64,000 bases of DNA from Bacteroidales bacterium (GTDB lineage: Bacteria > Bacteroidota > Bacteroidia > Bacteroidales > UBA932). The DNA lies in assembly GCA_017439305.1 (NCBI GenBank), contig JAFSJK010000033.1, positions 1 through 64,000 of the forward strand. Direction: 5' to 3'. Below are positions 1,046-2,942 of the stretch, one piece after another. Under the pieces are notes generated by a model that searched no databases, was not told the DNA's origin, and was given only the letters and a program-made list of their open reading frames with translations. Position 1 is the first letter of the stretch, and the number at the start of each line of letters is the position of its first letter. The position numbers and the translations under genes were made by a program.

Positions 1046-2077
1046 ATGCAGCAGGAGAGCCATACATCCAAAAACCGTCGTCTCCGACGACCCCTCCCAA
1101 AGCCAGCTTTGGGTCCCTCCCTCGTATGGGGCCGAGGGTGGCCACAGGTTTTTGGATGTATGGCTCTCCTGTTGGTTGACCTTATGGTCGGCGGCGGAGG
1201 GATGTCGTGGGCGAGCGGGGCGGTGCTGTGGAAGCTCAGGGTGCCGCGGGTGATGACGGCCTTGCTGGCCGGTGGGGCGCTGGCCTTGTCCGGCGCGCAG
1301 ATGCAGGCGGTGTTCCGGAATCCGCTGGCCGATCCGCACATTATGGGCGTGAGCGGCGGCGCAGGACTCGGAGCGGCCATCGCCACAATGGCCCTGGGCG
1401 TTTCGTCAAGCTATTTCACAGGTTTTACCGTAGCGCTGGCTGCTTTCCTGGGGGCGTTCGTAGCAGCAGCCCTGGTGGTCGCCGTGTCCACCCGGTTCCG
1501 CTCAACGACGACGCTGCTGGTATTCGGCGTCATGCTGGGATTCATCTTCAGCGCCCTGAGTTCCGTGTTGCAGTATACGGCCGGAGAAGAAAGCCTGAAA
1601 CTGTTCTACAGCTGGATGGCGGGCAGTTTTTCCGGCAGCCGCTATATGGAAGTCATCTTGATGGCTGGAGCATTGGCCCTCGGGCTGGTCCTGTCCATAG
1701 TCAATGGTAAAGGCCTGGATCTCATCCTGTTCGGAGAAGAATACGCGACCCTCTCGGGGGCATCGACCCGGCGTATCCTGATCCTGTCGATGCTCTCCGC
1801 CTGCCTGATGACCGGAACGGTCACGGCCTTCTGCGGTCCACTCGGCTTCGTGGGCATCGTCGCTCCGCACATCGCCCGGCGCATCACAGGCTCATCGGCC
1901 CATCAGCAGGTCCTCCCCTGGTCCCTCGCGACCGGTGCCACCCTGGCCCTCGCCGCCGACATCCTGGCGAACCTCTGGCCGATTCCCCTCCCCGTCGGCT
2001 CCACCCTGGCCCTCATCGGCATTCCCTTGGTCCTCATCCTCTTGCTTCGCAATCAGTCGTCGAATGCAAAGTATTAA
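1046..2077 (+). CDS. FecCD/BtuC-family ABC transporter permease with a foldback element at its N-terminus
   Basis: Inner-membrane permease of the iron-siderophore/cobalamin importer family. The body matches the family well: LRVPRVMTALLAGGALALSG, QMQAVFRNPLADPHIMGVS, and the C-terminal GPLGFVGIVAPHIARR loop that contacts the ATPase. About nine hydrophobic segments are visible. The first ~45 residues are abnormal. Bases 1052-1171 form a long inverted repeat, read in frame as a basic, proline-rich stretch. The usual first membrane helix is represented only by residues encoded in the right arm and just after it (MALLLVDLMVG). An in-frame ATG at 1160 sits inside that arm and is an alternative start. 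The substrate (cobamide, heme or siderophore) is not readable; no binding-protein gene is seen. The ATPase gene follows 61 bp downstream. Confidence 0.85.
   Translation: MQQESHTSKNRRLRRPLPKPALGPSLVWGRGWPQVFGCMALLLVDLMVGGGGMSWASGAVLWKLRVPRVMTALLAGGALALSGAQMQAVFRNPLADPHIMGVSGGAGLGAAIATMALGVSSSYFTGFTVALAAFLGAFVAAALVVAVSTRFRSTTTLLVFGVMLGFIFSALSSVLQYTAGEESLKLFYSWMAGSFSGSRYMEVILMAGALALGLVLSIVNGKGLDLILFGEEYATLSGASTRRILILSMLSACLMTGTVTAFCGPLGFVGIVAPHIARRITGSSAHQQVLPWSLATGATLALAADILANLWPIPLPVGSTLALIGIPLVLILLLRNQSSNAKY
1052..1171. repeat. Foldback element, copy 1 (25-bp perfect inverted repeat around a 70-nt structured loop)
   Basis: Arms 1052-1076 and 1147-1171 are perfect reverse complements. The loop holds three further hairpins: A 1077-1082/1086-1091 (GTCGTC/GACGAC), B 1096-1103/1106-1113 (CCCAAAGC/GCTTTGGG) and C 1119-1124/1133-1138 (CCCTCG/CGAGGG). 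The loop ends in a CCGAGGGTGG...CACA motif shared with copy 2 at 2305-2433, while the arms are unrelated between copies. Total length is 120 nt, a multiple of three, and the permease frame stays open through it. The right arm encodes what looks like native membrane helix, so the left arm is probably an inverted duplicate of it. Confidence 0.9.
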
Positions 2078-2081
2078 TAAA

Positions 2082-2122
2082 CAATAATTTACCAATTATT
2101 GCCTAGTTAAAAATGTCTAGGC
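2082..2122. other. Two adjacent small hairpins in the permease-ATPase gap
   Basis: The 61-bp AT-rich gap contains CAATAATT/AATTATTG (2082-2089 and 2094-2101, 4-nt loop) immediately followed by GCCTAG/CTAGGC (2101-2106 and 2117-2122, 10-nt loop). Neither is followed by a T-run in the coding direction, so they are not classical terminators. They may stabilise mRNA or modulate translation of the ATPase gene, which begins with TTG at 2139. Confidence 0.5.
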
Positions 2123-2138
2123 ATTATTTCATAAAGAT

Positions 2139-2942
2139 TTGACAATCAATAATATACATTCGACGGTCCTTCAGATTCAACTCCCTGCTATCGGCTACCG
2201 CGACCGCTTGCTCGTCCGGGACATCTCCTTTGAGTTGGCTCCGGGCGAACTCGTCCTGCTGGCCGGTCCCAACGGAACGGGCAAAACCACCCTGCTGAAG
2301 AGGCTGTCTTCCGGAGGTATAGGTCCCCGAAACCTCCGGTCGCAGAGCGACCTCCGTCCCTCCCATAAATGGGCCCCTCCCTCTAATGTGCCGAGGGTGG
2401 CACAGTTTCGGGGACCTATACCCCCGGAAGACAACATCATCCTCATCCCGACGAACATTCCGAAGGTCAAGGGGTTCACAGTCGAAGGGTTTATCGAGAC
2501 GGGGTGCTACCGGGATAGCGACTGGAGGGGAAGAATCTCGGCCGAGGCGGCCGGAAGAATGGAGGAAGCACTGGAACTGCTTGGTATTCAAGAGCTCCGA
2601 AAAAGGGATATCTCGACCTTAAGTGACGGAGAATTCCAGAAGGCGTGCCTGGCAGTCGGGCTCACCAGGCAGGCGGAAGTATTGTTGCTGGACGAGCCCA
2701 CGGCGCATCTGGATGTGGAAAACCGCATCGACGTCCTGCGGACGCTCCGGGATGTCGCGCGGAAGACCGGGACGGCAGTCCTCTTTTCCAGTCACGACCT
2801 CCACGATGCCCTGCAGGTCGTGGACCGGGTATTCGTCATCACCCGCGACGGGCGGTTCCTGACCTCCGGGCCCTTCGACAAGTTCACGGACCCGGTGTCC
2901 GTTCTCCGTGCAGCCTTCCCCGCCCTGGCCGATACCGTTTAA
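2139..2942 (+). CDS. ABC transporter ATP-binding protein (FecE/BtuD type) with an internal foldback element
   Basis: Cytoplasmic ATPase partner of the upstream permease. Visible motifs: Walker A GPNGTGKTT (around residues 45-53), signature LSDGE (variant of LSGGQ), Walker B VLLLDEPTAHLD and the switch His in SSHDLHDAL. No ATG lies near the family start, so TTG at 2139 is the likely initiator. Between Walker A and the Q-loop region the family normally has ~35-40 residues. Here there are ~52, most of them (SGGIGPRNL to FRGPIPPED) encoded by the inverted-repeat element at 2305-2433. The frame is kept, so a protein could be made, but this region packs against the nucleotide site and function is uncertain. 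The gene overlaps the convergent sensor gene by four bases. Confidence 0.85.
   Translation: MTINNIHSTVLQIQLPAIGYRDRLLVRDISFELAPGELVLLAGPNGTGKTTLLKRLSSGGIGPRNLRSQSDLRPSHKWAPPSNVPRVAQFRGPIPPEDNIILIPTNIPKVKGFTVEGFIETGCYRDSDWRGRISAEAAGRMEEALELLGIQELRKRDISTLSDGEFQKACLAVGLTRQAEVLLLDEPTAHLDVENRIDVLRTLRDVARKTGTAVLFSSHDLHDALQVVDRVFVITRDGRFLTSGPFDKFTDPVSVLRAAFPALADTV
2305..2433. repeat. Foldback element, copy 2 (29-bp inverted repeat, one mismatch, around a 71-nt structured loop)
   Basis: Arms 2305-2333 and 2405-2433 pair with a single mismatch. The loop repeats the plan of copy 1 with changed bases that keep pairing: hairpin A 2338-2343/2347-2352 (GGTCGC/GCGACC), B 2362-2366/2369-2373 (CCCAT/ATGGG) and C 2379-2383/2393-2397 (CCCTC/GAGGG), ending CCGAGGGTGG then CACA. 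Total length is 129 nt, again divisible by three. The loop is read in a different phase relative to its shared motif than in copy 1, yet has no stop codon in either case. Confidence 0.9.

Follow-up and report, generated by a model that had tools for sequence, protein, structure and literature searches.

A dispersed family of palindromic elements with a pseudoknotted core and locus-specific arms in uncultured Bacteroidales

Results

Two foldback elements in a transporter locus

The DNA analyzed here (hereafter the window) is a stretch of 64,000 nucleotides from a Bacteroidales bacterium of family UBA932, positions 1 to 64,000 of the forward strand of contig JAFSJK010000033.1 in assembly GCA_017439305.1. 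Near its start a peptidase gene, with its stop codon at 1034-1036, is followed by genes for the permease and the ATPase of an ABC transporter, and this region contains two long foldback elements that had been noticed in an original prediction made from the sequence alone. Both were present at the predicted positions with the predicted arm lengths and mismatch count. As described below, the two are members of a dispersed family, many carriers of which come from ruminants, and the central loop that they share, here called the core, is a structured nucleic acid with an H-type pseudoknot.

Copy 1 has perfect 25-bp arms (left, 1052-1076; right, 1147-1171; plus strand) around a core of 70 nt (1077-1146), and the palindrome extends over 1049-1174 with one mismatch. 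Copy 2 has 29-bp arms with one mismatch (left, 2305-2333; right, 2405-2433; plus strand) around a core of 71 nt (2334-2404), which is of a subtype having CTCC/CTCCG around helix P1. Both cores are assigned to the minus strand from arm mismatches only. For either copy, the folding of the element as single-stranded DNA was equalled by 0 of 200 dinucleotide shuffles (z of -11.2 and -8.5). A perfect 25-bp inverted repeat with a loop of 50-100 nt would be expected about 3e-9 times by chance in 64 kb if base frequencies are assumed equal.

The prediction that both elements lie in frame within transporter genes is clearly borne out for copy 2 but not for copy 1. Copy 2 is inside the ATPase open reading frame (2139-2942), which it interrupts directly after the Walker A motif with the reading frame preserved. 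Copy 1 is located between the peptidase stop codon and the permease, although an open frame (1046-2077) crosses it. The copy 1 element of the sister species (locus L027; loci are numbered L throughout) is intergenic, and the permease begins after it; in the window, what by reading is probably the native permease start, ATGGCTCTCCTG, lies in the outer part of the copy 1 right arm, and in L274 the probable permease start is likewise in the right arm. The clear in-frame insertion is therefore copy 2 only.

Two further features were observed near these genes. The gap between permease and ATPase (window 2058-2165) is AT-rich and has 49-nt arms that are 71% complementary, with CTAGGCA/TGCCTAG at the center; it was not seen there in L027. 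The window's own assembly also holds a second permease fragment (G000:C76:22506-23087), 88% identical, perhaps from a contaminating relative or a paralogue.

The core folds into a pseudoknot

Three hairpins in the same order and a common CCGAGGGTGG..CACA end were found in both cores as originally described, with one correction: the last hairpin, CCCTC/GAGGG, overlaps a second helix, TGnGGCC/GGCCACA, such that the end of the core is a pseudoknot. In copy 1, helices P1 (1077-1091, with 1077-1082 pairing 1086-1091) and P2 (1096-1113, with 1096-1102 pairing 1107-1113) are identified by covariation and folding. Helices P3 (1119-1138, with 1119-1123 pairing 1134-1138) and P4 (1127-1146, with 1127-1133 pairing 1140-1146 and 1129/1144 mismatched) are identified by covariation, and since P3 crosses P4 the pseudoknot is of the H type. 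The corresponding helices of copy 2 are P1 (2338-2343/2347-2352), P2 (2362-2366/2369-2373), P3 (2379-2383/2393-2397), and P4 (2387-2392/2399-2404).

The covarying core was confirmed on an alignment (A3) of 103 distinct rows. These were fitted to a covariance model, R1, built from 16 copies of the window's own genome and two of the sister species with the structure supplied by hand, and the alignment thus leans towards P1, P2, and P4. Within it, 94.2% of cells are paired, 16 of 26 pairs vary on both sides, and two-sided changes occupy 272 cells compared with 65.7 in shuffles; 0 of 500 shuffles reach 272. The covariation score of 0.285 drops to 0.02-0.06 when partners are slid by one to three columns. 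One P4 pair (A3 columns 191/206) is unpaired in most rows. Helix P3, which is not part of R1, is 100% paired; three of its five pairs are invariant, and at the other two both partners differ in 5 and 4 of the 103 sequences, giving CCCGT/ACGGG and CCCAC/GTGGG. Among 167 distinct elements the core measures 57-152 nt, with a median of 70. Divergent core subtypes, in which one of these two variants replaces CCCTC/GAGGG, were seen at L294, L169, L166, and L071, and at L294 one element is apparently nested within another.

A dispersed family, frequent inside genes

The original prediction had proposed a search for further copies, and these were found across the window's own genome (16 distinct places by blastn, 17 with R1) and its genus. 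At an E value of 0.001, at least one match was obtained in 151 of 200 genomes of the genus, many with 10-24, where 24 is the number of candidates scored per genome. Wider searches, whose hits were not individually inspected, gave matches in 35 of 149 genomes and 9 of 25 genera of family UBA932, own genus included, and in five of 295 genomes of the order, three of them outside the family. A DNA pattern for the element matched at least 118 stretches in named genome contigs. All 80 titles among the matches listed refer to uncultured members of Bacteroidales or Bacteroidia, and in many the title gives a ruminant host or a RUG isolate, the latter taken to be from the rumen.

The copy 1 core had no blastn match in plasmid and phage collections, and an exact search of viral contigs with the element pattern likewise gave none. 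A permissive search of six loci against Rfam 15 returned no family: the elements matched only miRNA-precursor models below the gathering score, and matches to ROSE_3 and neisseria_FSE fell elsewhere in the six loci, outside the elements. In keeping with the earlier statement that no named family is known to have this plan, none was found in Rfam or in the open-licence literature searched.

By an open-frame criterion rather than annotation, 96 of 155 elements lie in frames extending at least 150 nt before and at least 90 nt after them. Both orientations relative to the gene occur, 55 versus 45 in the set of 167 elements. Host genes, named by reading, include those for the tRNA methyltransferase TrmB, the pseudouridine synthase TruA, RecO, a MurB-like protein, and the ABC ATPase. 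The elements average 4.1 stop codons over six frames versus 6.2 in dinucleotide shuffles, and are also poor in stops outside long frames (4.9 versus 6.8). Insertions would survive in genes because they bring few stops in any frame and because, by reading, they land in protein loops.

The same protein loops of relatives hold other small palindromes, in TruA at L133, L134, L151, and L153 and in TrmB at L294 and L301. These are GTCATTCCCGGCTTGACCGGGAATCT, which resembles repetitive extragenic palindromes (REPs) of the CGTC type, and GTCATTTCGAGCGAAG..GAGAAATCT. Repeated palindromes of the GGACCTGGTCCA type occur at L302, there within the TrmB loop, and at L367.

Arms remain paired while their sequence varies

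The arms, which had been called unrelated between loci, are indeed not conserved, but they share a weak positional consensus (in the left arm, GGAGGGTAT..TTCC.GAAACC) to about 26 nt, with next to none past about 30. Among the 167 distinct elements with arms of at least 12 bp, a count that misses truncated copies and copies with arm indels, the median arm is 26 bp. In a separate set, 47 of 125 arms of at least 20 bp are perfect. Orthologous arms co-vary. At 21 loci, each represented by its closest pair short of identity, 67 changes in arm pairing are compensated and 27 uncompensated, and over orthologous pairs with arms at least 50% identical the counts are 364 and 119. All three arm changes between L072 and L073 are compensated, and the arms of L324, L327, and L331 are identical across three species.

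Arm mismatches are asymmetric between strands. With the core strand as written, 100 A.C and 28 G.T mismatches occur among 4205 pairs, a ratio of 3.6 (95% interval 2.5-5.7), and A.C predominates in sense (34:5) and antisense (25:10) contexts as well as outside long frames (41:13). Where one strand has an A.C mismatch, its partner has a G.U or G.T wobble, and therefore the complement strand, in the window that of the plus strand, is probably the one that folds, or else it is mutated more often. In 59 of 60 sampled elements, RNA folding energy was lower for the complement strand.

Largely separate histories of core and arms

We compared 152 non-orthologous pairs within genomes (53 elements, 12 genomes), measuring arm identity over positions 6-24. 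Pairs whose cores are at least 97% identical have arms 52% alike (n = 5 pairs), and pairs with cores less than 80% identical have arms 47% alike (n = 76). From the highest to the lowest core band the arm identities are 0.52, 0.52, 0.49, 0.46, and 0.47, and 0.64 for orthologous arms. Cores at least 93% alike make up 25 of the 152 pairs within genomes versus 40 of 1204 between genomes. Conversely, L321, L329, and L333, as well as L320 and L332, have similar arms around different P2 hairpins.

The core also changes orientation. Among 85 orthologous pairs, which are not independent, it has the same orientation in 59 and is flipped in 26; by locus, 15 of 29 have orthologues with opposite core orientations, and at seven of these 15 the arms are at least 70% identical. 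Flips in place are clear by eye in L321/L329/L333, L010/L144, and L149/L150. Core and arms are thus coupled loosely at most and have largely separate histories: either the core moves and leaves its outer arms behind, or sites exchange their cores, or the arms turn over much faster than the core loops.

Empty sites and scars

The joined flanks of the window genome's own copies and of copies in two further clades served as queries against relatives, and the alleles were read side by side. Relatives carry filled, clean-empty (including L359, L371, and L384), and scarred alleles (including L370, L132, L126, L109, and L307). Orthologues lacking the insert, whose comparison had been proposed with the prediction, were also found for copy 2: among seven ATPase orthologues from a motif scan, five (L030, L031, L035, L036, and L040) are without it, and only the window and L027 have it.

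The original prediction had further suggested that the core acquires its arms by copying adjacent target sequence in inverted orientation. The arms can include native flank, but not as a rule. In 128 pairs of filled and core-less alleles from 27 loci, an arm-like stretch of at least 9 nt occurs in the core-less allele in 14 pairs at seven loci (0.67 pairs expected from shuffles), most of these 14 being deletion scars by eye, and the other 20 loci have none, although many flanks are less than 85% identical and short native stretches could be missed. Where both flanks are at least 85% identical, no such 9-nt stretch was found at nine of 15 loci, one of which (L144/L126) is by eye a scar with 8 nt. 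Compared with empty L361, 13 of 13 nt of the L322 left arm are the reverse complement of native sequence (0 of 2000 shuffles), in a pair singled out after many had been read. The TrmB gene is an insertion hot spot, where the search pattern used matched 20 of the 30 loci read, and in alleles L165, L306, and L310 native E-G codons lie inside one arm and inverted in the other.

Two ideas on targeting were set aside. Entry of the core into the tip of an existing hairpin, an idea prompted by L370, an allele that has arms only, and by L372, which has a hairpin resembling a terminator, is not general, as several clean empty sites have no palindrome. A fixed GGAGG target is present at L361 (as CCTCC) and absent by eye from the empty junctions at L359, L371, L384, L382, and L131.

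Y1 transposases in carrier genomes

A Y1 transposase (PF01797) was detected at an E value of 0.001 in 143 of the 200 genomes of the genus, with 129 exceeding the family cut-off. Element and Y1 occur together in 126 genomes, the element only in 25, Y1 only in 17, and neither in 32. At three of five Y1 genes examined (L397, L404, and L413), the gene lies between inverted repeats of its own, as described for TIRYT genes; the repeats are ATGCCCTGTGA.., CCTCGTTC..GAACGAGG, and ATAGGGGGACGATATT.

Discussion

We tentatively favor the explanation, at slightly less than even chances, that both foldbacks are copies of a non-autonomous mobile palindrome that is recognized by its structure and moved in trans. 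Recognition and copying would act on the conserved pseudoknotted core and perhaps on some 10 bp of the inner stem. Beyond this, the arms would be locus-specific, not faithfully carried from copy to copy but kept paired, and might at times be rewritten by hairpin-templated synthesis or by conversion between the two arms. The active form would probably be one strand, the complement, folded as single-stranded DNA or as RNA. A putative enzyme acting in trans would move the element, with a RAYT/TIRYT-type Y1 HUH transposase as the first candidate. In favor of this explanation are the spread of copies through the genus and family, the covariation of the core, the core-less alleles of relatives, the dissimilar arms around nearly identical cores, the compensated arm changes, the core flips, the arm-mismatch asymmetry, and the co-occurrence with Y1 genes.

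Several observations weigh against this explanation. Arm likeness climbs slightly with core likeness, as partial co-movement would give, in a series whose top band is small, and identical cores could be the product of gene conversion. The flipped pairs L200/L272 and L208/L340 look by eye like separate nearby insertions. No target-site duplication was established, the empty and filled pairs being too diverged to fix exact ends, and the presence/absence pattern could include losses. The arm-mismatch asymmetry could be a mutation bias. The core mismatches, tried as further support for one strand, were rejected: the raw A.C:G.T count is 61:15, with 53 of the 61 A.C from two positions, one doubtfully aligned and one having A opposite any base, and without these two uninformative positions it is 8 to 15. 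Co-occurrence of element and Y1 genes, which speaks for the candidate enzyme, has an odds ratio of 9.5 (p = 3e-10, uncorrected for relatedness or completeness), versus 0.40 for the control DDE_Tnp_1, found in 73 of the 200 genomes. Yet 28 Y1 loci (26 distinct places, about 1.5-2 kb per side) gave no significant element match (best E 0.22), six genomes with at least five copies have no Y1 match, and 17 have Y1 without the element. RAYT linkage was for these reasons dropped as proof, and Y1 retained as a candidate.

A possible but rather unlikely variant of the mobile palindrome is a unit carrying only the pseudoknotted core, which would build or rewrite its own stem at each site. The core would enter single-stranded and always with the same polarity. 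Foldback synthesis, partly from the target, would then make the long, near-perfect arms, such that each copy gets private arms while the core spreads and flips. Terminal repeats would then be a product of integration, not its substrate. Because of the 8 to 15 count in the core, both this variant and the explanation that we favor carry slightly less weight. Alternatively, as in Rickettsia palindromic elements, arms and core might travel together, the arms later diverging by ordinary mutation under selection for pairing and the core appearing invariant only through strong constraint. The weak arm consensus, the 27 uncompensated changes as intermediate mismatches, the arms identical in three species (L324/L327/L331), and the slight rise of arm with core likeness are all consistent with this. 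So are the nine well-matched loci (one of them the scar L144/L126) whose core-less allele has no arm-like stretch, which implies that both arms came with the insertion or arose later. We nonetheless consider co-moving arms unlikely, as in the five pairs with cores 97-100% identical even in the loops the arms resemble each other little more than do those around very different cores, and as similar arms surround different P2 hairpins.

It is less probable still that there is no dedicated mobility at present, and that old hairpins are shuffled by replication template switching and by ectopic gene conversion of cores, which would also flip them, the absences being deletions. Flips at 15 of 29 loci, the internal-deletion scars, and the excess of like cores within genomes all fit such shuffling; the scar-free core-less alleles (L359, L371, and L384) and the scattered, lineage-specific copies are more easily explained as gains. 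The original proposal, in which a mobile core copies the flanking target in inverted form whenever it inserts, now seems improbable. The L322/L361 match, the inverted TrmB codons, and the probable permease start in the copy 1 right arm argue for it, but at 20 of 27 loci the core-less relative, often with flanks less than 85% identical, has no arm-like stretch of at least 9 nt, and hairpin repair that later lengthened the palindrome outward would produce locally the same pattern. Least probable of all, in our estimation, is that the host keeps the element for its own benefit as a cis-regulatory or antisense RNA. A pseudoknotted core with strong covariation and the lower folding energy of the complement-strand RNA would suit such a functional RNA, but the elements lie in both orientations in genes, occur by reading in many different host genes and in intergenic places, and are patchily present among close relatives.

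Whatever its means of dispersal, this repeat family of uncultured Bacteroidales is large, apparently unnamed, and often found within conserved genes. It provides natural experiments on the maintenance of pairing between palindrome arms, on the movement of structured DNA or RNA, and on the tolerance of proteins for in-frame insertions that recur in the same loops.

The consulted portions of two papers describe Rickettsia palindromic elements as palindromic, about 150 bp long, and in many cases in frame in unrelated genes (PMC10969869, PMC3733652). The present element is likewise a dispersed palindrome found within open frames of unrelated protein genes. Rickettsia palindromic element families are defined by sequence conserved over the whole element, ends included. 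Compared by description, the present family is different in having a conserved, covarying, pseudoknotted middle, locus-specific arms, and a core that flips, and it occurs in a different phylum.

In the portions consulted of two sources, REPs and REPINs are small palindromes, sometimes within genes, that are thought to be moved in trans by the Y1 HUH transposase RAYT, or TnpA-REP (PMC3733652, PMC6006769). A REP of the GTAG or CGTC superfamily is a hairpin of 20-40 bp with an unpaired GTAG or CGTC tag. The present element is roughly 100-200 bp, with two arms of about 26 bp around a core of 57-152 nt, and has no such tag: the CGTC at the core edge belongs to the arm and helix P1 and is not an unpaired foot. 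Unlike the REP-RAYT arrangement known as a REPtron, in which the element flanks the Y1 gene, none of the 28 Y1 loci examined here has a significant match to the element. Rickettsia palindromic elements and REP/RAYT systems are the closest known kinds, and the present family may work like a REP, but since it lacks a defining feature of each, we file it under neither.

Mitochondrial double-hairpin elements and GC clusters are also small mobile hairpins, but are organellar and smaller, and we know of none with a conserved core inside variable arms. Miniature inverted-repeat transposable elements (MITEs) retain the terminal inverted repeats of a parent transposon. The present element resembles them in being short, dispersed, and without a gene of its own, but its ends are the variable part, and its plan of a conserved middle with private ends is thus the reverse of that of MITEs.

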